A stretch of 36,001 nucleotides of DNA from Candidatus Binatia bacterium (GTDB lineage Bacteria; Desulfobacterota; Binatia; UBA9968; JAJDTQ01). The first letter of the stretch is position 1. The number at the start of each line of letters is the position of its first letter. This document shows positions 343 to 18,552 of the stretch, in pieces. Under the pieces are notes generated by a model. The model was not told where the DNA came from. It ran no database searches and saw nothing but the letters and a program-made list of their open reading frames with translations. The DNA lies in NCBI GenBank assembly GCA_022823055.1, contig JAJDXX010000123.1:1-36001 (forward strand), written 5' to 3'. Position numbers and translations under genes: made by a program.

Positions 343-597
343 CGGCCTTCCGCCGTGGTAGTATGAAATAATAATGTTTTAAAGACGACGTGTTACAACC
401 GTGCAACAGCCCAGAAACTTAACGGGTATGTCAGTAAATTCAAATAGTTAGAGGGCTGCAGTGAATCCGGACGAGCTAATCTTCGGAGTTTTCTCCAATA
501 GTCAGTGTCGGATTTGCCACACATCAAGTTCCGGTGATCGCGATACGGATTGGGGCAAGCCCTTGTTTTTGCTGGATGTTGTGCCGTGTGTCTACAC
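343..597. other. Intergenic region upstream of the tad promoter
   Basis: About 255 bases with no credible gene, more AT-rich at 355-450 than the surrounding coding DNA. It lies between an enhancer-binding protein gene and a sigma-54 promoter, so it is where upstream activator sites would be expected. I could not pick out a convincing inverted repeat by eye. Confidence 0.6.
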
Positions 598-615
598 TTG
601 GCATGATTTCTGCTT
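598..615 (+). promoter_or_regulatory. Sigma-54 (-24/-12) promoter of the tad operon
   Basis: The sequence TTGGCATGATTTCTGCTT matches the sigma-54 consensus (TGGCAC-N5-TTGC). GG is at 600-601 and GC at 612-613, exactly 10 bases apart as the enzyme requires. Transcription would start near 625, leaving a leader of about 56 bases before the TTG start at 681. The site follows a gene for a sigma-54 activator and precedes the pilus genes, so regulation by RpoN is strongly suggested. It also excludes in-frame start codons at 534 and 603 for the first pilus gene, because they lie upstream of the predicted transcript. Confidence 0.8.
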
Positions 616-680
616 GTAAGACTATGAGTCAGGCTTCAGGGCCGAAAGGGACAACCGCCGGGCAGAAAGGGGGGATCAAG

Positions 681-1256
681 TTGCCGATTCGCGACTTGAC
701 ATCATGGGCAGGGCTCGTGAGGGGGGTGTCGGCATTCGTCTTCTGCCGGCGCGCCTCGGTCGCGGTGGAGAGCGTCGCCTACGTCGCCTTTGTGGTCGCC
801 ATGACGGGCACCGCGTTCGAGATCGTGAAGTCGTTCAACGTCGGCGACACTCTTGAGCGCGCGGCCTACGCGGTTGCGCGGGACCATGTGCTGCACAACG
901 CGATGCCGGGCGACAACGCCGCGTTGATTGCCCGGGCCAGAGACGCCATAAGGGAAGAGGCAGGAGGCGCGCTGAATCCCGATGCGGTCGACATCGAGTT
1001 CAAGGTTTACCTGAATCCGTCCAAGATGTTGAATGACGAGGTGTCAACCGGCAAGCACGCGGGCATCGGCGGTGGGCCGGGGGACATGGTCGTGGTTCGG
1101 TTGAGCTACAAGACCACCACGGGGTTTGCGTGGCTGCGGCGGCAGTTGGGACTGAACGACGGTGACGAACTCGGCTTCGGCGCCTTGGCGGTGGCGCGTA
1201 ACGAACTGGCGTTGCCCGTGAGCTCGGGTTCCGGCGGCCAGTTGGGAAGCCCGTGA
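681..1256 (+). CDS. TadE-like pseudopilin (first)
   Basis: Predicted 191-residue minor pilin of the Tad pilus. The start is the TTG at 681, preceded by a strong ribosome-binding site (AAAGGGGGG, 666-674) at 6-base spacing; upstream in-frame ATGs precede the predicted transcription start. The N-terminus has a short basic stretch (FCRRASVAVESVAYVAFVV) with the pilin-like hydrophobic helix and a Glu in the position typical of TadE-type prepilins. The rest is a predicted periplasmic domain with no motif I recognise. The stop overlaps the next start codon (GTGA at 1253-1256), so the two TadE-like genes are probably translationally coupled. TadE family membership is inferred from the N-terminal segment, the size and the position. 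Confidence 0.78.
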   Translation: MPIRDLTSWAGLVRGVSAFVFCRRASVAVESVAYVAFVVAMTGTAFEIVKSFNVGDTLERAAYAVARDHVLHNAMPGDNAALIARARDAIREEAGGALNPDAVDIEFKVYLNPSKMLNDEVSTGKHAGIGGGPGDMVVVRLSYKTTTGFAWLRRQLGLNDGDELGFGALAVARNELALPVSSGSGGQLGSP

Positions 1257-1882
1257 ACGCCATGAAACGAATCTTGCCTGCAGGGGTTTTCGCAACTCTC
1301 TCCTCCTGGTTGCGGAACACGAGAGCGTCGGTGAGCGTCGAGTTTGTCGCCGGAGCGGTGCTCCTTCTCACGATGACGATGGGTACGCTGGATGTCTACC
1401 GGCTGATGGATGCAAGCTCGTTGAGCGCAAACGCCGCGAAAACAATGGCGGATTACATGTGGTTGTCGAACTCCCCGAAGTCGCAGCATCTGGAGGACTT
1501 GGCGAAGTACGCGCACCGGAAGCAGATTGCGGTCCCGTCGCATGCCGCCTTCGTCGTGTCCGCCTTCACGCAACCTGCGGGGGCGGGCGCTTCACCCGAC
1601 AAGTCGTGGGACCACCGGATCCTTGTGGCCCCCGATGGAGAAACGCCGTCGCCGCTGGCCGATGTTTGCGGCTCGCGCAGCTTGATCGGAACGGGGGGGG
1701 GGCTCCCCGCGGGCTTCACGATGGCCGCCGGCGAGGAGATCATCGTCGTGGAGGTGTGCGTGAAGGTGTCGTCGGGGGCATTGTTGAGTGGCGGAGTATT
1801 GGACACCGTGGGTCTCCCGTCAGTGTTCTACGAGTACAGGATCGTGCCGGTGCGTGACTTCATGCCGGCGAAGCCGGTGTGA
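1253..1882 (+). CDS. TadE-like pseudopilin (second)
   Basis: A 209-residue protein with a hydrophobic pilin-like N-terminus (ASVSVEFVAGAVLLLTMTMG) following a basic stretch, as in TadE/TadF minor pilins. The start could be GTG at 1253, which overlaps the previous stop and follows GGGAAG, or ATG at 1262. A run of ten G bases (1693-1702) encodes three consecutive glycines near residue 148; a one-base change there would truncate or scramble the C-terminal third. A pair of pseudopilin genes ahead of tadG is usual in tad loci. The protein probably sits in the inner membrane or pilus base after prepilin cleavage; this is family knowledge, not shown here. Confidence 0.78.
   Translation: MNAMKRILPAGVFATLSSWLRNTRASVSVEFVAGAVLLLTMTMGTLDVYRLMDASSLSANAAKTMADYMWLSNSPKSQHLEDLAKYAHRKQIAVPSHAAFVVSAFTQPAGAGASPDKSWDHRILVAPDGETPSPLADVCGSRSLIGTGGGLPAGFTMAAGEEIIVVEVCVKVSSGALLSGGVLDTVGLPSVFYEYRIVPVRDFMPAKPV
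1693..1702 (+). repeat. G10 homopolymer inside pseudopilin gene
   Basis: Ten consecutive G bases within the second TadE-like gene, currently in frame (Thr codon ACG followed by three GGG glycine codons). It is the longest G run I found in the window. Runs of this length are prone to slipped-strand length change. Confidence 0.95.
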
Positions 1883-1899
1883 GTATTGAGGTTGACGCA

Positions 1900-3459
1900 A
1901 TGAAGAACAGCTCACAGGTTCTCGCCGGCCGGCTTCGGTTTCTCCGTGATGCCTCCGCCGCGGTCGGGCTCGCCTCCGTGATGCTCGGCTCCGTGGTCCT
2001 GGTCGGCGTGGGTGTGCTCGGCGACACGGTGTGGCTGTCCCGCCAGCAGAACATGCTGGAGGATGCGGTCGCCGCGGCGGGTGTCGCGGCTTTCAAGGAG
2101 TTGGGCAACCTCAATCCCAGCGACACGGACGAAGACCAGAAGAAACAACTCGAGAAAATCATCAAGCGGTACGTCCTGGTCAACGTGCCAGATCTCTATC
2201 GCGACTCGGTAGAGAAGTCCCTGAAGGTCGGATTCAGGAAAAGAAAGACTACCTCCAACGGCAACGAAAAAGAGGCCGTAGACCTGCAGGTCAAGGCAAA
2301 GAGGGGCGGGGCAAGCCCCTTCATCGGGGTTGGCAAGGATGACGTGATCCAGGCCACGATCTCGGTCGAGCGGGCCATTGTTCCCGTCGACGTGGTGCTG
2401 GCGTTCGACACCAGCGCCGGCAACAGCAACAAACGGCTGGAGGGCATCCGGGTAGCGGCGCGCACGCTCATCAATGCCCTGTACGTCGCGGGTGGGAAGC
2501 ACGTTTCCATGGGTTTGGTCCCCTACAGTGCCGCTACCGTCAATATAGGTACCCAACGAACAGGTTGGATCAAGCCGAACGATATCGGAATGGGGCACAA
2601 GAAAGCCCCGCCCGATTCGAAATATGCCCAGCCCCTTTACCAACCTGGCGGCCTCTTTGGCAACCGCTTCAGTGCCCTTTGGGGAGGGTGTGTCGAGCAC
2701 CGCGTGAAGCCCGGCGGTATGGACCGCTTCGATCTGTCCCTCGCGACGCACGACGTCGAGAAATTCGCGTCCTACTATTATCCCTACGACCCTGATGAGA
2801 TCGCGAGTCCTTGGGCAGCGGGGCAGGGACCGCAAATGGGCTGCCCGGGAAGCGTCATCGTACAGCTTACCTCCGACCGCAGCTCCATCGAGCAGGAAGT
2901 CGACGCCTTGCACCTGAACGGCGTTGGCGGGATAGGTTATCCTGCCGGCGGCGGCATGATCCACTTGGGTGTCGTATGGGGCAGGAGGGTGCTGGCGCCC
3001 AGTTGGCAAACCGCATGGGGGTTGCCCCAGTCAACCGCAGGGGAGCGAAGGAAAGTCCTGGTGCTGCTTTCGTCTGCGGTCAGAGATACCATGTGGGAAG
3101 GCGCATACTCTGCCTACGGCAGACCGGGACCGGGACCCGAAGAGAACGGTCACCTGGATGGGGATCCTCTGGATGGCGTAGTCGCACAGTCGGCCGTGCT
3201 TAACAAACTCGACGGTGTCACCAAGGAAAACTGCTCGCTGGGCAGGAAGGAAGGTACCACCATATTCGCGGTCCTGGCAATGGCCCGAGGACACCGGGCG
3301 ACAAGGGAGGCTGCCGTCAAGGTACTGAAGGAATGCACCGGGTCCCCGGGCAATGTCTTCGAGGCCGATGACAAGGCTGAAATTGTGGATGTATTCACGA
3401 GGATCGGCAAGAGAATCGGGACGACGCGACGGGTGAAGCCGCCGCCCGGCGATATTTGA
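1900..3459 (+). CDS. tadG: TadG-like pilus assembly protein with von Willebrand A-type domain
   Basis: A protein of about 519 residues. ATG at 1900 is preferred because TGAGG lies 8 bases upstream; GTG at 1879 overlaps the previous stop and is the alternative. A membrane segment near the N-terminus (GLASVMLGSVVLVGVGVLG) precedes WLSRQQNMLEDAVAAAGVAA, the usual TadG/TadE N-terminal pattern. A von Willebrand factor A-like domain begins near residue 165, with AFDTSAGNS in the place of the metal-binding MIDAS loop. The third MIDAS position reads Gly where Ser is usual (DxSxG), so metal binding may be weakened. It probably spans the inner membrane with the vWA part in the periplasm, and the gene sits between pseudopilin and pilin genes as in other tad operons. 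Confidence 0.85.
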   Translation: MKNSSQVLAGRLRFLRDASAAVGLASVMLGSVVLVGVGVLGDTVWLSRQQNMLEDAVAAAGVAAFKELGNLNPSDTDEDQKKQLEKIIKRYVLVNVPDLYRDSVEKSLKVGFRKRKTTSNGNEKEAVDLQVKAKRGGASPFIGVGKDDVIQATISVERAIVPVDVVLAFDTSAGNSNKRLEGIRVAARTLINALYVAGGKHVSMGLVPYSAATVNIGTQRTGWIKPNDIGMGHKKAPPDSKYAQPLYQPGGLFGNRFSALWGGCVEHRVKPGGMDRFDLSLATHDVEKFASYYYPYDPDEIASPWAAGQGPQMGCPGSVIVQLTSDRSSIEQEVDALHLNGVGGIGYPAGGGMIHLGVVWGRRVLAPSWQTAWGLPQSTAGERRKVLVLLSSAVRDTMWEGAYSAYGRPGPGPEENGHLDGDPLDGVVAQSAVLNKLDGVTKENCSLGRKEGTTIFAVLAMARGHRATREAAVKVLKECTGSPGNVFEADDKAEIVDVFTRIGKRIGTTRRVKPPPGDI

Positions 3460-3534
3460 TTCGAGCTTCAAGTCAGGATCGAGTAAAACTGAACTTTGAA
3501 CTTTAGGTCAGCAAAAAGAATGAAGGAGCAAGAT

Positions 3535-3708
3535 ATGATTCCTCGATTGGCTCAGTATTTTCGCAGCCGGAGCGCCGTCTCGGCGCTGGAGTACGCTGCG
3601 ATTGTCGGCATTCTGGTAGTCGGATTGGCTACCGCCATCGGCCTTTTTAGAGATGAGATCACAAGCTACCTGACCACCGTACAAGGCAAGATATCGACCA
3701 TGACCTAA
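3535..3708 (+). CDS. flp: Flp-type pilin
   Basis: A 57-residue major pilin. The start at 3535 is set by AAGGAG (3523-3528) at 6-base spacing; the upstream in-frame TTG (3496) and ATG (3520) lack this. The sequence has a basic leader (MIPRLAQYFRSRSA) then VSALEYAAIVGILVVGLATA, the Flp motif with Glu at +5 and the adjacent Tyr, and a hydrophobic helix. The residue before the predicted prepilin peptidase cut is Ala, where Gly is most common. The short polar tail is typical of Flp pilins. The expected peptidase is encoded at 11154-11639 on the other strand. It is the only Flp-type pilin gene I see in the window. Confidence 0.92.
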   Translation: MIPRLAQYFRSRSAVSALEYAAIVGILVVGLATAIGLFRDEITSYLTTVQGKISTMT

Positions 3709-3741
3709 AACGCGTTCAGGTCGTCGCACGACTTCGTTCCT

Positions 3742-5085
3742 ATGTACGGTATCATGCGTCGCGGGCTCTTCGGCATGACTGTCCGGCGGAGTTTGTTGGC
3801 CACCATCGCCGTGGTGCTGCTGGCCATGGCGGCGGATCTCAACGCGCAAGATGTCCCCGACGAGTTGTTGTTGACCGTCGAGGCCGGGCAGAGCCGGACG
3901 CTGCGGCTTGACCGTCCCTCAGCCGCCGTGTCCGTCTCCGATCCGGCCATAGCGGACGTGCAGGTTGTATCGACCGATCTGATATTGGTCTACGGCAAGG
4001 CCGGAGGCCGGACATCGCTGGTGGCGCTCGGAAGCGACGGCGGCCTTATCGGACGGTGGAGGGTGACCGTAACGGTCGGGTTGGCGGGGGTCCGGTCCGC
4101 GTTATCGGAAGACGCGGAACTCCGGGACGTGGAGGTTCGTCCGTGGCGCCACGGGGTCGAGCTCTCCGGCGTGGTGGCGTCAGCCGCAGTGGTGGAACGG
4201 GCCTTGCAGTTGGCGCGGGCGTCTTTGCCCGAGAAGTCCCTGGTGGTCAACCGCCTGTCCATTGCAAGTCCGCAACAGGTCAATCTCGAGGTGCAGATCG
4301 CGGAAGTTCAGCGTAGCGTGAGCGAGTCGCTCGGCATCAACTGGCAAGCGATGGGCACGCGCGGGGACGGGGTGTTCGGCATGCGCGTGGGACATCTTCT
4401 TCCGGTCTCGCCGGGCGACCTAGCCAACAACTTTCCCGGCGCCTCGCTGCAGGGCGGACAGGCGTCCTCCCTGTTCGGCTCCTATACCTCGCCCACCGGT
4501 TCCGCCTCGGTACGGAGCCTGATAGACGCTCTCGCGACCGCAGGGCTCGCCACGGTGCTGGCCCGCCCCAACGTGACCGCTGTCTCGGGCCAGACCGCGA
4601 GCTTCTTCTCCGGCGGCGAGTATCCGCTGCCGAGTGGATTCGAAGCCGGCCAACTGTCGTTCGAATACAAGAAATATGGCGTCTTGCTCGACTTCGTGCC
4701 CACGGTGATCGACAGCGACCGGATCTCGCTTACCGTCCGCCCGGAAGTGTCCCAACGCGTGGGCACGGACGCCCTGAAGATATTCGATACCGAGATACCG
4801 GTCATAGATGTGCGGCGGGCCGAGACCACCATCGAAGTGGGGGACGGTGAATCCATCGTGATCGCGGGGCTCTACCGCAATCAGAGCGACACCACCGAAG
4901 CCGGTTTGCCCGGGCTCAAGGATGTGCCGGCACTGGGACTGTTGTTCGGCAACCGGACGGTAAGGTCCAACTCGACCGAGCTCATTGTCGTGGTCACGGC
5001 GCGCCTGATCTCCCCGGCCGACAGGAACTTCAGGGGCGCCGCGCAACGGGTCTTGAGTCGCCGCGTCCAGGGATACCACTACTGA
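3742..5085 (+). CDS. cpaC: CpaC/RcpA-type Tad secretin
   Basis: A 447-residue outer-membrane channel protein for the pilus. ATG codons at 3742, 3754 and 3775 are possible starts; none has a clear ribosome-binding site, and the signal peptide (RRSLLATIAVVLLAMAADLNAQ) begins just after the third. Then come the pilus-assembly N-terminal domain (residues about 40-110, LTVEAGQSRTLRL), a BON-like domain (about 115-175) and the secretin domain (about 255-430), which ends in the characteristic LPGLKDVPALGLLFGNR and STELIVVVTARLI. The length and domain order match CpaC. It should form the ring through which the Flp fibre exits. Confidence 0.93.
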   Translation: MYGIMRRGLFGMTVRRSLLATIAVVLLAMAADLNAQDVPDELLLTVEAGQSRTLRLDRPSAAVSVSDPAIADVQVVSTDLILVYGKAGGRTSLVALGSDGGLIGRWRVTVTVGLAGVRSALSEDAELRDVEVRPWRHGVELSGVVASAAVVERALQLARASLPEKSLVVNRLSIASPQQVNLEVQIAEVQRSVSESLGINWQAMGTRGDGVFGMRVGHLLPVSPGDLANNFPGASLQGGQASSLFGSYTSPTGSASVRSLIDALATAGLATVLARPNVTAVSGQTASFFSGGEYPLPSGFEAGQLSFEYKKYGVLLDFVPTVIDSDRISLTVRPEVSQRVGTDALKIFDTEIPVIDVRRAETTIEVGDGESIVIAGLYRNQSDTTEAGLPGLKDVPALGLLFGNRTVRSNSTELIVVVTARLISPADRNFRGAAQRVLSRRVQGYHY

Positions 5086-5180
5086 ATCGTGCCGGCGTCC
5101 ACCGGGCGAAGTCGAAGGACGCCCATTCCAAACGGAACCCCGCGGATGCGGTTCGCTGGAATTCACCGGGAGAAAATGCA

Positions 5181-5498
5181 ATGTGCGCCTGTCCACGAAT
5201 CCTGCGAGTGGCCCTTTGTCTGGCCGCCGCAGGTTGGATGGCGGCGGGTTGTGCCCGCTCGCCCATCGACGCCGAACGCGCCGCCTTCGTCGCCCCGGCG
5301 AGAACGGCCGCGCGTTCGGCGGCCCGCGCGCGGCTTCTGCTTGCCGAGGACCAGGCCCGCCACGGGTTGAGTGTGGCAGAGGGCGCGGCTCAGCGGCCCA
5401 CGCCTTTCCACGGCACGGTCCGTGAAGCCTACCTGCGATGGCTCAGAGGGGAAGTGAAGCCGTTGGCCGGATCCGGCACTGGCGATGGCGACAAGTAG
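5181..5498 (+). CDS. Small lipoprotein of unknown function in the tad operon
   Basis: A 105-residue protein with a lipoprotein signal: basic start, hydrophobic core, lipobox MAAGC with the lipid-bearing Cys near residue 24. ATG at 5181 follows GGGAG. The mature part is Arg/Ala-rich and ends in a Gly/Asp-rich tail; I recognise no domain. It sits between the secretin and cpaE genes with short gaps, so it is part of the operon. Some secretins need a small lipoprotein pilotin, and a similar role is possible here, but nothing in the sequence proves it. Confidence 0.72.
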   Translation: MCACPRILRVALCLAAAGWMAAGCARSPIDAERAAFVAPARTAARSAARARLLLAEDQARHGLSVAEGAAQRPTPFHGTVREAYLRWLRGEVKPLAGSGTGDGDK

Positions 5499-5519
5499 GG
5501 TGTAGGATCGAATCGAGCA

Positions 5520-6683
5520 ATGGAATCGGCGAGCGAGCACATTTGCGCATTCGCGGGAGATGCCCGCACCGAGGCGCTCCTGTCCGATGCGTTGGGGGAC
5601 AAGGGCGCGACGGTCCACCGCGGCGACATGGGCGCCGTCATCAAGCATTTGACCGGAGCGCCTTCGCCGAAGGTGGTGATCGTCGACCTGGACGGCAGCC
5701 CGTTCCCCGCCGGACGCATACACGAGTTGGCCGGAGTCTGCGAGTTCGGTACCAAGGTCATCGCGGTCGGCTCCAACGACACTGCCCGCCTTGCCCGTGA
5801 GTTGCTCGCCGCCGGCGTCAGCGACTACCTTCCCAAACCGGTTTCCGTGCGCGAGATTCGCGAGGCCGTCGGCGTGGCCCTGGACGGCGACATCGGTCAG
5901 GCCAGGATGCATGCCGGGCGCGTGATCGCCTTCCGGGGGTGCGGCGGCGGGTGCGGCGCCACGACCCTGGCGGCGTTGACCGTGCGTGCTTCGGCGGCTC
6001 GGGGGAGCTACGTCTCGGCGCTCGATCTCGACCGTGTGTTCGGCGCCCTGCCGTGGATGCTCGATGTCGAGCCGACCGCGGGGCTGGCTGAGTTGCTCGA
6101 CGCGGTCGCCACCGGCGGGGTTGTCAGTATGGAGATGCTCGAGGCGGTGAGCGCGTCCGACGGCCCGCGGATATCGGTTTTCGGCTACCGCGCGGGTGAA
6201 GGGGTGCCGCCGGAGCCCAAGCCGGACGCGGTGCAGTGGTTGACCGAGCGTCTCGCCAATCGGTCGCATCTGGTGGTGGTGGACGGAATGCTGGATGCCG
6301 ATACGTTTTTCTCGGTGCTTCGGAACGCGGATGAGCGGGTGCTTGTCTACGAACCGACCCTAGTGAGCCTCAGCCGGTTGACGCATACCCTGATGCTGAT
6401 GGGCGAGGGAAGGGAAGTCGTTCTGGTGGAGAACCACACGAGAGGAACGAAGCGCGCGCTTTCTTCCAGCCAGATTCGTGATGCGTTGGCGGGCCGCCAG
6501 CCGGACGTCGTCATTCCGTTCGAGGCGAAGCTTCCCGCGGCCACGAACCGGGGAAATCCGTCTGAATTCCTGGGAAAGCAGTATCGCGCGGTCCTGGACA
6601 AGCTCATCGACAAGCTGACGCGGCGCACGATCTCGCTGGCGGAGCCCCCCCCGGGTACATTCACTTTTACAGGCTCGCGATAG
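5520..6683 (+). CDS. cpaE: CpaE/TadZ-like pilus localisation ATPase
   Basis: A 387-residue protein with two parts. Residues 1-125 look like an atypical receiver domain (VVIVDLDGSPFPAGRI, then LAAGVSDYLPKPVSVREI). From about 133 comes a MinD/ParA-like ATPase domain whose P-loop reads RGCGGGCGATTLA (about 139-151). The usual lysine of the KGGxGKT motif is Ala here, as is common in the CpaE/TadZ family. TadZ proteins mark the pole and recruit the secretion ATPase and platform. A run of eight C bases (6645-6652) lies near the 3' end and codes for Pro-Pro. The gene directly precedes cpaF, the standard order. Confidence 0.88.
   Translation: MESASEHICAFAGDARTEALLSDALGDKGATVHRGDMGAVIKHLTGAPSPKVVIVDLDGSPFPAGRIHELAGVCEFGTKVIAVGSNDTARLARELLAAGVSDYLPKPVSVREIREAVGVALDGDIGQARMHAGRVIAFRGCGGGCGATTLAALTVRASAARGSYVSALDLDRVFGALPWMLDVEPTAGLAELLDAVATGGVVSMEMLEAVSASDGPRISVFGYRAGEGVPPEPKPDAVQWLTERLANRSHLVVVDGMLDADTFFSVLRNADERVLVYEPTLVSLSRLTHTLMLMGEGREVVLVENHTRGTKRALSSSQIRDALAGRQPDVVIPFEAKLPAATNRGNPSEFLGKQYRAVLDKLIDKLTRRTISLAEPPPGTFTFTGSR
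6645..6652 (+). repeat. C8 homopolymer near the end of cpaE
   Basis: Eight consecutive C bases in the codons for the C-terminal LAEPPPGTF segment of the CpaE-like protein. Slippage would alter only about the last twelve residues and the stop position. Confidence 0.93.
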
Positions 6684-6713
6684 AGGAATTCGCTTGACGA
6701 GGAGAGATCCGCA

Positions 6714-8096
6714 ATGGCGTTGAGAGCTTTTGGTCGCCGCCCCAAGGCGAGCGTGGAAGACAAGGCCGACGCGGTGGAGGCCACGCCCACTCCGGCGCCG
6801 GCCCAGACGCCCACGCGCCTGCAGACCCCGGACGCGACCATCGCCGCGATCGCGGCGAAGATTCATCCTGTCGTCACCAGGGCCATCGACATGACCGAAG
6901 CCGGGAAGCTCAACCCGGACGAGTTGGCGACGCAGCTTCAGGCGTTTCTCGATCGGGAAGGGACCGAGGAGACGCAGTCGCTGACCCCGTTCGACCGGCG
7001 GCGGGTGGTCGCCGCCCTGATCAACGATATCAAGGGCCTGGGGCCGCTTGAGCCGTTGTTCCAGGATCCCAGCGTCTCCGACATTCTGGTCAACGGCCTG
7101 CGCTCGGTCTACGTGGAGCGCCGCGGCAAGCTGACCCAGGTGGACATCAAGTTCCGCGACGGCCAGCACCTGCTGCGCATCGCCCAACGCATCGCCGGCT
7201 GGGTCGGGCGACGGGTGGACGAGTCGAGTCCCATGGCGGATCTCAGGCTCCCGGACGGCAGCCGCGTCAACATCATCATACCGCCGCTGGCCATCGACGG
7301 CCCCAGCATTTCGATCCGGCGCTTCCTTCTCACCGGCTTGACCCTGCAGGATCTGGCGACCCAGGAAATGCTGTCGTCGCCCATGGCCGCGCTGCTCCGG
7401 GTCTGTGTCCAGGCGCGCCTGAACATACTCATTTCCGGCGGCACCGGGGCCGGCAAGACCACGTTGATGAACACCCTGACCAGCGAGATCAGTCCGGACG
7501 AGCGGCTGGTCACCATCGAGGACGCCGCTGAACTGCAGGTGCAGCAGCCGCACGTGGTGCGTCTGGAGACGCGCACCATGAGCGCCGAGGGGACCGGAGA
7601 AGTGTCGATGCGGGCATTGGTCATCAACGCGCTCCGGATGCGGCCCGATCGCATCATCGTCGGCGAGGTACGGGGCGCCGAAGCCATGGAGATGCTGCAG
7701 GCCATGAACACCGGGCATCCGGGCTCCATGTCCACGATCCATGCCAACAGTCCGCGCGACGCCCTGATACGGCTGGAGAACATGCTCTTGATGGGCACGG
7801 CCGAAATGCCTCTCGCCGTCATTCGACAGCAGGTGGCGTCGGGCCTCAATCTCGTGGTGCAGGTGGAGAGGATCCCTTCCGGGAGACGCTGCATCACCAG
7901 CATCACCGACGTGGCGGGGATGGAACACGACGTCGTTCTCACCGAGGAGATGTGGCGTCTCGAGCGCGGCGAGTCGGGGGAAGTCTTCGAGAACAGCGGC
8001 CGGCAGCCCTCGTGGGTGGCCGCGGTGGACCGCGCGGGTCTGCGCGCCGAGTTGCAGGAGGCGCTCGAGGCCGGACGCGCCGAGATGGCGAGGTGA
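6714..8096 (+). CDS. cpaF: CpaF/TadA secretion ATPase
   Basis: A 460-residue hexameric ATPase of the type II/IV secretion superfamily that powers Flp pilus assembly at the cytoplasmic face. ATG at 6714 follows a GAGGAGAG-like ribosome site. A variable N-terminal region (1-60, Pro/Ala-rich) precedes the N-terminal domain. The Walker A motif GGTGAGKTT lies at about 242-250, Walker B-like RMRPDRIIVGEVRG at about 305-318, and the His box MSTIHANSPRDAL near 341-353. Length and motifs are intact. The gene ends 4 bases before tadB, consistent with coupled translation. Confidence 0.95.
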   Translation: MALRAFGRRPKASVEDKADAVEATPTPAPAQTPTRLQTPDATIAAIAAKIHPVVTRAIDMTEAGKLNPDELATQLQAFLDREGTEETQSLTPFDRRRVVAALINDIKGLGPLEPLFQDPSVSDILVNGLRSVYVERRGKLTQVDIKFRDGQHLLRIAQRIAGWVGRRVDESSPMADLRLPDGSRVNIIIPPLAIDGPSISIRRFLLTGLTLQDLATQEMLSSPMAALLRVCVQARLNILISGGTGAGKTTLMNTLTSEISPDERLVTIEDAAELQVQQPHVVRLETRTMSAEGTGEVSMRALVINALRMRPDRIIVGEVRGAEAMEMLQAMNTGHPGSMSTIHANSPRDALIRLENMLLMGTAEMPLAVIRQQVASGLNLVVQVERIPSGRRCITSITDVAGMEHDVVLTEEMWRLERGESGEVFENSGRQPSWVAAVDRAGLRAELQEALEAGRAEMAR

Positions 8097-8100
8097 CTTC

Positions 8101-9060
8101 ATGTGGACGGCTTGGAGCGTGGCGGGAGCGTTTCTTGCGGCCGTGGTGTGCCTTGGCCTGTGGCTCAGGGCACGGGTCGCCGACAAGGCGCTTGAGCGGC
8201 GGCTGCGCCGGGTGGCGGGGGTGCTCGCTGGCGAGCTGGGCGAAGACTCGGCGGAGGGTCACGCCAATGAAGTCAAGGTGAGCGTGTTCCGCGCCCTGCC
8301 GGACAGATCGAGGTGGCGCAAGTCCCTCGAAGATCGATTCTGCATGCTCGAAGGCCGTGACCCGCTTCCCAAGGCCGCCGCCGTGGGCCTGTCGGCCGGC
8401 ATTCTGGCGATCGTGGTTGCTTACGCCATGCAGTTCGGTCTATTGACATTTCTCATGGCGCCTGCCGCTGGGGTCGGGGGGGGGTGGGTGTTTCTTTCGC
8501 TCTGGGATGCGCGGGTTCGCGCCGAATTCGTCAAGCAATTCCCCGAGATCGCGGATCAGATCGTGCGTCTGGCCCGCGCCGGGCTGCCCGCGCTGGAAGC
8601 CATCGCCGAGGTGGCCAGGACGGTGCCGGAGCCTGCCAGGCATATCCTGCAGCAGATCTCGGACGAGTTGTCGTCGGGGCTGGATCCGGAGACGGTGCTG
8701 CGCGACGCCGCGACCCACATCCGCGTTTCGGAATTCACCCTGTTCACGGCCGCGCTCGCACTGCAGCGAACCACCGGCGGCAGCATCGCGGTCACCATCG
8801 GCCATCTCGCCGCCACCGTGCGCGCGCGCATGGAGGTGCAAGCCAAGGCTTACGCCTCCACATCGCAGACGCGCACGACACTCTGGGTGCTGGCGGCGGT
8901 TCCCGTGGTGAGCCTGCTTGGCCAGGCCTTCAGCAACCCGGGTGCGGTCAGCATACTGTTCGAGACCGAGGAGGGCGGGACGCTGTTGCGCTGGGGGGTC
9001 GGGCTGATCGTGGTCGGTCTGCTGGCCGCCCGCGGCATTGCCGCCCGGTTCCTGCGATGA
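8101..9060 (+). CDS. tadB: TadB-like inner-membrane platform protein
   Basis: A 319-residue membrane protein of the type II secretion F family. There is an N-terminal membrane segment, a pair near 95-130, the cytoplasmic T2SSF domain (about 140-270, with FPEIADQIVRLARAGLPALEAI) and a C-terminal membrane pair. It forms the inner-membrane platform with TadC above the CpaF motor. A G9 run (8476-8484) codes for three glycines in the second membrane region. Its stop overlaps the start of tadC (ATGA, 9057-9060). Confidence 0.92.
   Translation: MWTAWSVAGAFLAAVVCLGLWLRARVADKALERRLRRVAGVLAGELGEDSAEGHANEVKVSVFRALPDRSRWRKSLEDRFCMLEGRDPLPKAAAVGLSAGILAIVVAYAMQFGLLTFLMAPAAGVGGGWVFLSLWDARVRAEFVKQFPEIADQIVRLARAGLPALEAIAEVARTVPEPARHILQQISDELSSGLDPETVLRDAATHIRVSEFTLFTAALALQRTTGGSIAVTIGHLAATVRARMEVQAKAYASTSQTRTTLWVLAAVPVVSLLGQAFSNPGAVSILFETEEGGTLLRWGVGLIVVGLLAARGIAARFLR
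8476..8484 (+). repeat. G9 homopolymer inside tadB
   Basis: Nine consecutive G bases between TC and TGGGTG in tadB, in frame now as three Gly codons. A length change would destroy the T2SSF domain downstream. Confidence 0.94.
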
Positions 9061-10049
9061 CGTCCTCGCCGTATGTGGTCTGGGGGTTGGGCCTCGCCTT
9101 GGTGGCTTCTTTGGCCTTGCTGGCGGCGTCCATCCGTTTTCTGTTCCGTGACAGCCGCAGGGCCGTGGTCCTCGACAGGCGCCTGAAGGCGGTGCGAAAG
9201 CAGGCGCTGTCCATATACGGAGGAATGGATACGGGGCTGGAGGGTCGCCCCGGAAGCGCCATTTCTCTTCCGATGCTGTCCGTGTTTGCGGCGACCGCGT
9301 TTCGGGTGGTCGCCACGGTGGTGCCGATCGAAGCCTCCGAGCGCGCGAAGATCGGGAACCTGATGGTGCAGGCGGGTGTCCAGCACCGGGATGCGCTTGC
9401 GTTCTTCCTGTCGCTCAAGCTGATCCTGATGTTGACCGCGGGGGCAGGCGCCGGGGTCATGGCGTGGCGCATGGAATTGTTCGGTGGGCACGCCCTGATG
9501 GTCGGCATCGCCGCGATGGCAGGATTCGTCATCGGCGGGGTCTTGCCCGAGGCGGGGTTGCGGCGGCTGCTCGCTCGACGGAAGGTCAACCTGTCGCGCG
9601 CACTCCCGGACGCGCTCGACCTCATGGTGCTGTGCGTCGAGGCCGGCTACACGTTCGAACGCGCTCTCGCTATGGTCTCGCGGGAACTCCAGCCTATCGC
9701 CCCGGACCTCGCTCGGGAGCTGGCGTCCGTGGAGGCGGACTTGCGCGTGGGCGCGGAGAGGAAAGTGGTGCTGCAGGAACTCTGCGACCGCACCGAAACC
9801 GAGGGCATACGCGATTTCGCCATGACGATCATCCAGGCCGAACGCTTCGGCACCCCCATCGGTCAGTCCATCCAGAACATTGCCTTGGCCGAACGGACAC
9901 AACGCGCCGCCCGCATCGAAGCCCAGGCGGGACGCCTGCCTGTCATCATGAGCCTGCCGATGCTCCTTTTCGTGGTCCCCGGCATCCTCGTCCTGCTTGG
10001 CGGTCCTGCCTTCATGCAAGCGTTCAAGGCAATCGGTGGATTGGGATGA
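9057..10049 (+). CDS. tadC: TadC-like inner-membrane platform protein
   Basis: A 330-residue second platform protein. The start is the ATG at 9057, in the ATGA overlap with tadB; an in-frame open stretch continues upstream to 8484 but only as antisense-like sequence within tadB. Membrane segments lie near the N-terminus (LGLALVASLALLAASIRFLF) and at about 120-165, followed by a T2SSF domain (DALDLMVLCVEAGYTFERAL; TPIGQSIQNIALAERTQRAAR) and a C-terminal membrane segment (MSLPMLLFVVPGILVLLGG). It is the last gene of the plus-strand operon, which ends facing the minus-strand cpaB. Confidence 0.92.
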   Translation: MTSSPYVVWGLGLALVASLALLAASIRFLFRDSRRAVVLDRRLKAVRKQALSIYGGMDTGLEGRPGSAISLPMLSVFAATAFRVVATVVPIEASERAKIGNLMVQAGVQHRDALAFFLSLKLILMLTAGAGAGVMAWRMELFGGHALMVGIAAMAGFVIGGVLPEAGLRRLLARRKVNLSRALPDALDLMVLCVEAGYTFERALAMVSRELQPIAPDLARELASVEADLRVGAERKVVLQELCDRTETEGIRDFAMTIIQAERFGTPIGQSIQNIALAERTQRAARIEAQAGRLPVIMSLPMLLFVVPGILVLLGGPAFMQAFKAIGGLG

Positions 10050-10146: not shown

Positions 10147-11142
10147 TTACCTCGTCACCGTCACTTCCTCCTGTTTGTCCCCCCGGAATACTTTGACCTT
10201 GATCTCGGGCGGTTCCAGCGGTACGGGAACCGACGGTGAGGAGGCGAAGGCGGGGGGTGCTGCGCCAGGGGCAAGAGTCATGGCGGGAACCGGCACCGCC
10301 GTTGTTGCAAGCGGTCCGGCTGGGAGTTCCGGTTCCGGCGGCTTCCGCTGCGGGAGCAGGCTTTCGAAGGCGGTGGGTGTGCGGTCCTCGCGCCGCCGGA
10401 AGTCGGTGAGGGAGCGCATGGCGAGGGCGATGGTCCCCTTGGTCTTCGCGAGGATCAGGCGCTCGGCATCCGCGGGTTGCAACTCAAGGGTGACCGTGTT
10501 GGCGGCGTTTCGCGAACCCCGGCTGAGCAAACCGCCGTCGGCGCTATTCGCGCTGCTCTCCACCTGGCGGTTGACGGCGACGACGCGGACGTACTCGAGG
10601 ATCGTGGCGGTGACGGTGCTCGTCTCGCGCGTGGCCGGATCCAGAAGTTCCGCCGTCAGGATCACGTCGACGTGGTCACCGGGGTAGATCAGGGCCGCCT
10701 CGCTGGTGGCCCCGTCTACCGGGATCGTGACGGCCCGGTGGTCCGGCTTGAGGGCCGCGGCCAGAAAGCCGTGCTCGCCCGGGCGCACGATCGCCGACCA
10801 GCTCAACGGCCTCCCCTTGAACACCGCGCGTCGCACGACCGAGCCTATCACTTTGGCCTCCTCGGTCTTGCCCTTGAGCATGTGCGTCGAGAGGACGGTG
10901 CCGTTCTGTACAGGCGCCCAGACGACGTCGCTGGCGGTGATCAGACGGCCGATGTCGAGGTCGTTGGCCGCCGCCAGGACCACGGGCACGGGTTTGGGTG
11001 GCGGCTCTGCCTTCTTCGGCGGTGCAGGCTCTGGCCGAAGGTACAGCCATCCGCCGCCTAGGGTGGCGCCGACGGAGATGATGCCTGCGAGAAGAAACAG
11101 GATGGCCGAGCGTGAATTTCTTGGCAAGCGGGACCTTTGCAT
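10147..11142 (-). CDS. cpaB: CpaB/RcpC-type pilus assembly protein
   Basis: A 331-residue periplasmic protein of the Tad secretin complex. ATG at 11142 has AAGGAG seven bases upstream, so longer open frames to 11349 are not used. One N-terminal membrane segment (SAILFLLAGIISVGATLGGG) is followed by a Pro/Lys-rich linker, the SAF domain (VVLAAANDLDIGRLITASDV, near 50-115) and the RcpC-type domain (VTIPVDGATSEAALIYPGDH). The tail is Pro-rich. The gene is 11 bases after cpaA on the minus strand. In many tad loci cpaB lies with cpaC; here it is on the opposite strand, about 6 kb away. Confidence 0.92.
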   Translation of the reverse strand: MQRSRLPRNSRSAILFLLAGIISVGATLGGGWLYLRPEPAPPKKAEPPPKPVPVVLAAANDLDIGRLITASDVVWAPVQNGTVLSTHMLKGKTEEAKVIGSVVRRAVFKGRPLSWSAIVRPGEHGFLAAALKPDHRAVTIPVDGATSEAALIYPGDHVDVILTAELLDPATRETSTVTATILEYVRVVAVNRQVESSANSADGGLLSRGSRNAANTVTLELQPADAERLILAKTKGTIALAMRSLTDFRRREDRTPTAFESLLPQRKPPEPELPAGPLATTAVPVPAMTLAPGAAPPAFASSPSVPVPLEPPEIKVKVFRGDKQEEVTVTR

Positions 11143-11153
11143 CACAAACTCCT

Positions 11154-11639
11154 TCAACTGCTTCCGGTCACGGAATAAGCCCGTAGCGCCAGCAGCACGA
11201 TGGCCGGCGGCGCGATTGCCACCGCGAACGGAATATTGCTGCGCAGCCGTCGAGTGGCGTCGAACGGCAGCAGGCAGAACAGGCCGACGCCGAGGCCCAG
11301 CAGGCCGACACCGAACAGGAAGGCGCTGATGTCCAGCGGCCCGATCCACAACCCCGTCACGGCCATGAGCTTTCCGTCACCCGCGCCCAGCGCACCGAAC
11401 AGGAACAGGCCGAAGCCCAGAGCCAGAAGGACCGCGCCGGCGGCGATGTTTGTCCACAAGGGCATCGGCCCATGGTGGTCCACGAAGAACCACTGGACCA
11501 CGAACAGACCGAGGACCGCGAGCGGCACCAAGTTGGGAACCTCGCGGCGAAGGATGTCGAAAATCATCGCCGCACCCAACAGGAGGCAGCAGGCCGTCAG
11601 CAGCAACTGTTCAAGCAATGGAAACCTTCCCTGTCCCAT
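11154..11639 (-). CDS. cpaA: CpaA/TadV-type prepilin peptidase
   Basis: An A24-family aspartic peptidase that cleaves the basic leader of Flp and the pseudopilins. It has about 161 residues from ATG 11639, preceded by a GGGA element; in-frame starts at 11654 and 11696 are possible, the latter overlapping the upstream gene. The two catalytic aspartates are visible: D28 in FDILRREVPN, and D88 in the GAGDGK motif. Four to five hydrophobic segments make it a polytopic membrane protein. It is short because TadV-type enzymes lack the N-methylation domain of PilD. It is cotranscribed with cpaB and with the TadD-SPOR gene. Confidence 0.9.
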   Translation of the reverse strand: MGQGRFPLLEQLLLTACCLLLGAAMIFDILRREVPNLVPLAVLGLFVVQWFFVDHHGPMPLWTNIAAGAVLLALGFGLFLFGALGAGDGKLMAVTGLWIGPLDISAFLFGVGLLGLGVGLFCLLPFDATRRLRSNIPFAVAIAPPAIVLLALRAYSVTGSS

Positions 11640-17049: not shown

Positions 17050-17214
17050 TCTACGACAGCCAACGCGAAGAAATCAACGCTGTCAAGGGCGGGTTTTTTT
17101 TGGGCGGTCGGCCCGTGCCCTATCAATTTATGGAACACGGTGGTAGTCATGCCATTTAGTCCGCGAACACCGCGTCCGGCACGAAACGCGTTCCAGCAGC
17201 AGGAGGACCTTTCG

Positions 17215-18552
17215 ATGGGGCGAACTCGTATATTCATTGTCCTTGCGCTCGCATGGGTGTTCTTGCCCACTGTCGCATATGCACTGGACGGCAGAATCAA
17301 CGACACGCCGGTGCCGGAGTGGAAGGTAACGGCGGACACCGTATGGACTTGCATCGCGGCCATGCTGGTGTTCCTCATGCAGGCGGGCTTTGCCTTGGTC
17401 GAGGGCGGGTTTACCCGCGCCAAGAACACGGTCAACATCATGATGAAGAACGTCGGGGACTTCGCCATCGCCTCGCTCGGCTTCTGGATATTGGGGTTTG
17501 GCCTCATGTTCGGCGAGGGCAACCCGTTCATGGGGACTACGGGTTTCTTCACTTCGCCCGAGATGGGCGACGACCTGTACCCTTCCCTGAGTTGGGCATC
17601 GGTGCCGACCATGACGGCATGGCTCTTTCACCTGATGTTCTGCGCCACCGCCGCCACCATCGTGGCCGGTGCAATGGCCGAGCGCACCAAGTTCGTGAGC
17701 TATCTCATATTCAGTTTCTTCATCTCCCTTTTCTTCTATCCCGTGGTGGGCCACTGGGTGTGGGGTGGTGGATGGCTTGCGACGCTCGGCATGCTGGACT
17801 TTGCCGGCTCCACGGTCGTGCACTCCACCGGCGCATGGTTCGCCCTGGCCGGCGTGATCGTGCTTGGACCCAGGATCGGAAGATACAGCGAGCGCGGACT
17901 ACCGCTTGCCCTTCCGGGTCATAACATGATGATGGCGACGCTCGGGATGTTCATCCTGTGGTTCGGTTGGTTCGGCTTCAACACGGGAACCCTGATGAGC
18001 GCCAACGTATTCGAGATATCGACGATCGCCGCCAATACCAGCCTCGCGGGTGCCGCCGCCGCCATTGGCGCCACCCTGACCACGTGGTTCCTGTTCGGCA
18101 AACCCGACATCACGATGACGCTCAACGGCGTTCTCTGCGGTCTCGTGGCGGTCGCCGGCGCATGCGCCTATGTGGAGCCTTGGGTCGCTGCCGTCTTCTT
18201 CGGCTTTCTGCCCGGAGTTCTCGTGGTATTCTCCGTGCTGGCGTTCGATCGGATTCATGTCGATGACCCGGTGGGAGCCATATCCGTTCACGGCACGGGC
18301 GGCGCATTCGGGACGGTCATGCTGGGACTGTTTCATGCCAACTCCGGACTGTTCTACGGTGGTGGGGGCGACCTGCTCCTGGCCCAGTTCGTGGGGGTGG
18401 TGGCCGTCTTCGCCTTCAGCATGGTTAGCGGCTTTGTGATGTTCAGCTTGATCAAGGCCGTCGTGGGGTTGCGCGTGTCGCCGCAGACCGAGAGGGCTGG
18501 CCTGGACATGGAGGAACACGGCAACGATGCCTATCCAGAGTTCTTGGCCTAG
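17215..18552 (+). CDS. amt: Ammonium transporter, Amt family
   Basis: A 445-residue inner-membrane ammonium channel. ATG 17215 has AGGAGG (17201-17206) eight bases upstream. A cleavable signal peptide (IFIVLALAWVFLPTVAYA) is followed by eleven membrane segments. Recognisable family blocks are MLVFLMQAGFALVEGGFTRAKN, VGHWVWGGGWL, TLGMFILWFGWFGFNTG and the terminal GLDMEEHGNDAYPEF, which ends like other Amt proteins. The family block usually read as HSxGG appears as HSTGAWFAL. No PII (glnK) gene is adjacent, although Amt genes often pair with one. The gene ends before a strong stem-loop. Confidence 0.94.
   Translation: MGRTRIFIVLALAWVFLPTVAYALDGRINDTPVPEWKVTADTVWTCIAAMLVFLMQAGFALVEGGFTRAKNTVNIMMKNVGDFAIASLGFWILGFGLMFGEGNPFMGTTGFFTSPEMGDDLYPSLSWASVPTMTAWLFHLMFCATAATIVAGAMAERTKFVSYLIFSFFISLFFYPVVGHWVWGGGWLATLGMLDFAGSTVVHSTGAWFALAGVIVLGPRIGRYSERGLPLALPGHNMMMATLGMFILWFGWFGFNTGTLMSANVFEISTIAANTSLAGAAAAIGATLTTWFLFGKPDITMTLNGVLCGLVAVAGACAYVEPWVAAVFFGFLPGVLVVFSVLAFDRIHVDDPVGAISVHGTGGAFGTVMLGLFHANSGLFYGGGGDLLLAQFVGVVAVFAFSMVSGFVMFSLIKAVVGLRVSPQTERAGLDMEEHGNDAYPEFLA

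Follow-up and report, generated by a model that had tools for sequence, protein, structure and literature searches.

Slippage in poly-G tracts of ten or eleven bases (G10, G11) switches the sortase-dependent pili of Bifidobacterium breve UCC2003 (PMC9187656), and in Campylobacter G or C tracts of at least 8 within open reading frames (ORFs) are long enough to switch genes (PMC6321876). Tracts at the 3' ends of genes give C-terminal phase variation in Helicobacter canadensis (PMC2823697). The rough-to-smooth conversion of the tad/flp locus of Aggregatibacter actinomycetemcomitans comes about through changes in the promoter region and is essentially irreversible; an origin in slipped-strand mispairing was considered improbable (PMC7157720). 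A full-text literature search on phase variation, Tad pili and homopolymeric tracts found no work other than that on the bifidobacterial sortase pili. Here we describe three long G or C tracts in the Tad (Flp) pilus locus of an uncultivated deltaproteobacterium, Candidatus Binatia bacterium. The window (65% G+C), by which we mean the whole stretch of 36,001 nucleotides analysed, comprises positions 1-36001 of contig C236; the assembly spans 4.27 Mb in 253 contigs. We consider it somewhat more probable than its alternatives taken together that these tracts, prone to slippage and confined to one lineage, are tolerated in a tad block that is accessory and weakly codon-adapted, and that any switching would be incidental.

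Each of the described systems resembles this locus in part. As in B. breve, long G tracts lie inside a gene of a pilus locus, where slippage in that organism sets both the reading frame and pilus expression; however, the B. breve tract lies in the first gene of its operon, which is annotated as two ORFs, is conserved across the genus and has had its length mixtures measured (PMC9187656), whereas those described here lie inside genes or at a gene end, keep the frame, are not conserved and are known from assembled sequence, and the pilus is a type IV pilus of the Tad/Flp kind. The runs of at least 8 G or C within ORFs recall the Campylobacter phasome, but Campylobacter has many such tracts with strain-to-strain variability (PMC6321876), while this genome has about five and avoids such runs. 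The tract in cpaE, like those of H. canadensis, is at the 3' end, so that a slip would swap only C-terminal residues; the H. canadensis tracts, though, are G10 or longer and vary in length within the population (PMC2823697), whereas that of cpaE is a C8 read from one assembly. With A. actinomycetemcomitans the point in common would be a Tad pilus lost through mutations in the tad locus.

An earlier note on this DNA had located the three tracts and proposed from them a phase-variable pilus. Its positions are correct, and all three tracts are in frame and inside coding sequence:

1693-1702, forward strand: G10 tract in a TadE-like pseudopilin gene, encoding Gly147-149
6645-6652, forward strand: C8 tract in cpaE, encoding Pro376-378
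8476-8484, forward strand: G9 tract in tadB, encoding Gly126-128

The right part of the window, as the note had also said, is free of G/C runs of at least 8; a single C7 (15085) and a T8 (17094) occur there. A pattern scan found 25 distinct G/C runs of at least 8 in the 4.27 Mb assembly, and inspection of every one outside the window placed nearly all of them at contig ends or between genes. Coding tracts clearly away from contig ends number five in the assembly, three of them within this 6.8 kb; the other two lie in an M23-peptidase (EnvC-like) gene (G8) and in an RGP-like glycosyltransferase gene (G11). Were five coding tracts placed uniformly, any three of them would lie within 6.8 kb with a probability of about 9e-5; calculated with all 25 runs, the figure is 0.016. 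The background for comparison consisted of 873 kb of stretches sampled from the genome together with whole-genome pattern counts; its coding set, 762 kb in 701 genes, was delimited by a simple rule based on ORFs and G+C content at third codon positions (GC3), and expected run counts came from synonymous codon shuffling within genes. In these 762 kb, 46.5 runs of at least 8 were expected and none was observed, and for runs of at least 7 the figures were 149 and 18. Avoidance of such runs is thus strong in this genome, and the tad operon departs from it. Bacterial genes in general contain fewer poly-G and poly-C runs than expected (PMC2831843). The local enrichment is stronger than had first been proposed, and runs of at least 8 are not equally frequent genome-wide. 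A genome generally rich in poly-G can be ruled out, since almost all of its other runs lie between genes or at contig ends.

Some of the runs elsewhere in this genome have features of their own. The long intergenic G/C runs typically adjoin a dispersed palindromic repeat with the core TTCCCGC...GCGGGAA (L034, L036, L045-L049 and others). On contig C91, a G9 (L031:1760-1768) follows GAGAGAGAGA just upstream of an ATG (TTCTCATGAGTGAC), a leader-like position. The G11 tract of the glycosyltransferase gene (L044:596-2035, reverse strand, contig C49) lies about 25 codons before the end of the gene, which overlaps the next, a membrane-protein ORF; the tract is a possible site of C-terminal variation.

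None of the three tracts is shared with relatives. We compared the tad loci of three congeners (one with two copies) and of three members of the same class, all of them relatives at the species level only; within the genus, four of nine genomes have a tad locus. No run of at least 8 was found in the tad structural genes tested in these relatives. At the three tract sites their codons are mixed and most of the glycines or prolines are replaced, so no tract is kept, an outcome that the earlier note had itself taken to count against its proposal. Retention of a tract with differences in length was likewise not seen among these species-level relatives. The alignment of TadB is ungapped at the tract and the relatives differ at the glycines, which argues that the tadB tract arose by substitutions and not by expansion. 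In the relatives' tad genes runs of at least 6 occur at 0.12-0.23 of expectation, which is ordinary avoidance.

The operon around the tracts looks complete, encoding two TadE/F-like pseudopilins, a TadG-like protein, an Flp pilin, a secretin, a lipoprotein, CpaE, TadA, TadB and TadC; rcpC/cpaB is encoded on the opposite strand. Its genes are as follows (HMM, hidden Markov model):

534-1256, forward strand: TadE/F-like pseudopilin ORF, with homologues in two relatives (G002 and G005) and no Pfam match
1253-1882, forward strand: TadE-like pseudopilin gene of 209 codons (Pfam TadE, E=0.0004, just under the curated cut-off)
1879-3459, forward strand: TadG-like protein, without Pfam match, named by position and homology to relatives' tad loci
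3535-3708, forward strand: Flp-type major pilin of 57 residues with an ALEYA motif, its family taken from the motif alone, without HMM support
3742-5085, forward strand: RcpA/CpaC secretin (Pfam Secretin, 1.5e-40; T2SS-T3SS_pil_N)
5181-5498, forward strand: small lipoprotein at the CpaD/RcpB position, assigned by position only
5520-6683, forward strand: cpaE/tadZ-like gene of 387 codons, with a weak response-regulator match and 57-70% identity to the genes at the same position in relatives
6714-8096, forward strand: tadA/cpaF ATPase (Pfam T2SSE, 4.7e-62)
8101-9060, forward strand: tadB, 319 codons, with a T2SSF domain (Pfam) at residues 151-272, downstream of the G9 tract
9057-10049, forward strand: tadC (Pfam T2SSF, 1.6e-16), its start overlapping the tadB stop (ATGA)
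10147-11349, reverse strand: rcpC/cpaB (Pfam RcpC, 2.1e-27)

Pfam matches cover these components of a Tad/Flp (type IVc) system: the TadA ATPase, the two T2SSF proteins TadB and TadC, the secretin and RcpC/CpaB; an Flp-type prepilin and a TadE-like pseudopilin are also present, the former recognised by motif only and the latter by a match slightly below the cut-off. Homology of the first ORF to its relatives begins at about codon 68, and its true start is probably downstream of 534. Searches for Rfam families and tandem repeats gave nothing relevant, and in a scan of the window for sigma-54 promoters matches were no commoner than chance.

The predicted consequences of slippage differ between the three sites. 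In tadB any slip of one base precedes the T2SSF domain: loss of one base is predicted to give a product of 269 residues, and gain of one a frame of 649 residues that enters the tadC frame and stops at 10049. Either slip would destroy the T2SSF domain of TadB. In the TadE-like gene any slip is predicted to swap the last 60 or so residues, the last third of the protein, with products of 169 to 201 residues. The C8 of cpaE, at codon 376 of 387, lies in the last few percent of the ORF and has readable alternative tails, as in C-terminal phase variation: slips are predicted to alter only the C-terminal dozen residues and to change the length from 387 to 391, 392, 400 or 401. The relatives' CpaE proteins end in unrelated short tails at the tract position, and because the C8 sits in this non-conserved tail its slippage would be nearly silent. 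Slippage is accordingly predicted to give an OFF product in tadB and probably in the TadE-like gene, and not in cpaE; from the reading frames, the tadB G9 appears to be the one plausible on/off site, the TadE-like G10 a probable one and the cpaE C8 nearly neutral. All three tracts lie away from the 5' ends of their genes, and the consensus is in frame at each.

The codon usage of the block is unusual. By codon-usage typicality the tad genes other than tadA rank in the lowest 4-14% of genes; most of them favour G-ending codons (0.45-0.59, against 0.45 +/- 0.05). With the tracts masked, runs of at least 5 occur in the tad genes at 0.80 of expectation, compared with 0.54 +/- 0.14 for blocks of the genome, a mild relaxation of avoidance. 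In background genes whose codon adaptation is poor or whose GC3 is low, avoidance of runs of 7 is weaker too (0.26 to 0.37, against about 0.1). The low codon typicality, the patchy presence of the locus and the relaxed avoidance of runs of 5 together argue, if incompletely, for relaxed constraint. The ratio of non-synonymous to synonymous substitution rates (dN/dS) is about 0.2-0.3 for tadA, tadB, cpaE and the secretin and about 0.5 for the two pseudopilins, which places the locus mostly under purifying selection. The intact frames and the low dN/dS in most genes rule out decay of the pilus locus. Loss of mismatch repair is likewise ruled out as the cause of the tracts, since genes for both MutS and MutL were found in the genome.

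The closest relative (G002; 69% TadB identity) is syntenic with the window from tad via the ammonium transporter gene amt to a large AAA protein, and its version of the block has three long tracts, all at sites other than those of the window. One, a C12, sits in the final codons of a histidine kinase gene. The second, a C11 (L080:13482-13492), lies in the tad leader region, which separates the first pseudopilin gene from the regulator gene upstream of it. A sigma-54-like site, TGGCACGCTTCGTGCT (L080:13400-13415, reverse strand), is close by, and the C11 is a possible transcriptional tract. The third is a G10 (L147:3816-3825) within the conserved WGGGW motif of amt, where the syntenic amt of the window (17140-18552) has GGT GGT GGA. 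About 0.09 tracts would be expected in the 23 kb examined in this relative, against the three found, an estimate based on about 19 hand-counted sites away from contig ends in 4.9 Mb and on a region whose limits were partly set after the tracts were seen. In G005 the regulator gene just before the tad locus contains a G8, and another relative, G008, has no tract in its two short contigs. The tad block thus tends to bear tracts in more than one species, their sites apparently turning over, a pattern that either relaxed constraint or a contingency locus with turnover could yield. The same assembly of the closest relative has runs of G34-G51 at or near contig ends (L156, L160, L164), which are probably sequencing or assembly artefacts and which inflate its poly-G counts, and a methyltransferase gene in it (L163:1267-2187, reverse strand) contains an in-frame tract of 15 C encoding PPPPP.

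Taken together, these observations lead us to favour the explanation that tracts are tolerated within an intact tad locus. The three slippage-prone tracts would be of recent origin in one lineage, having arisen mainly by substitutions that yield all-GGG or all-CCC codons, and their setting would be a patchily distributed, weakly codon-adapted block in which selection against runs is partly relaxed. They would be expected to make frameshifts in the pilus genes more frequent, with an on/off lesion only at the tadB G9 and, less drastically, at the TadE-like G10, while the cpaE C8 would vary a C-terminal tail. Switching, if there is any, would be an incidental consequence at low frequency and not the work of a conserved, dedicated switch; we infer no adaptive maintenance of the tracts. 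That the cpaE C8 and the glycosyltransferase G11 both lie near gene ends lends support to tolerance. Several findings weigh on the other side. Background genes with similarly poor codon usage have no run of at least 8 in 90 kb; with the tracts masked, avoidance of runs of 6 in the tad genes is within the normal range and there is no run of exactly 7, which suggests that the tracts are a separate class. The independent tracts of the closest relative in the same syntenic block are also what a contingency locus with turnover of sites would predict.

The strongest alternative is selected phase variation, in which slipped-strand mispairing at the tadB G9 and the TadE-like G10 would reversibly switch the Tad pilus, giving a mixture of adherent and non-adherent cells, and the tracts would be kept because switching is favoured. 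We regard this as possible but doubtful. Three of about five coding tracts lie in one surface-structure locus, against none in 762 kb of other coding sequence, their length and type match the variable tracts of Campylobacter (at least 8 G) and of the B. breve pili (G10-G11), and a slip in tadB would be destructive; to this extent the phase-variable pilus of the earlier note stands. However, no tract is conserved and the relatives' tad coding genes avoid runs normally, the C8 of cpaE would be almost neutral, none of the three tracts stands close to a 5' end, all sites are in frame in the consensus and the mismatch repair genes are present. In favour of selection, the tracts of the closest relative in the tad leader, kinase gene and amt, together with the regulator G8 of G005, are as expected if positions turn over. 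A corresponding proposal is that the structural genes of this Tad/Flp pilus switch by poly-G slippage at sites that turn over between species within the tad-amt block (the coding tracts here; in the closest relative, the C11 of the tad leader, the C12 at the kinase end and the G10 of amt), which we think unlikely.

Least probable is an effect of chance or assembly, by which Gly- or Pro-rich stretches happened to coincide with GGG or CCC codons or tract lengths were mis-assembled in the metagenome bin: shuffling of the tad genes alone gives 1.1 expected runs of at least 8 against three (P=0.08) and poly-G runs stand at contig ends in this assembly and those of relatives, but that shuffle is the weaker comparison because it reuses the tracts' own codons and ignores the genome's avoidance of runs, which makes chance unlikely, and gross errors of length are unlikely because all three runs are contig-internal in conserved proteins that are intact and in frame.

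If the tracts do switch the pilus, this locus would represent slippage-driven phase variation of a Tad pilus. If they do not, it would be an example of strong homopolymer avoidance failing locally in an accessory region, and a warning against inferring phase variation from tract length alone.
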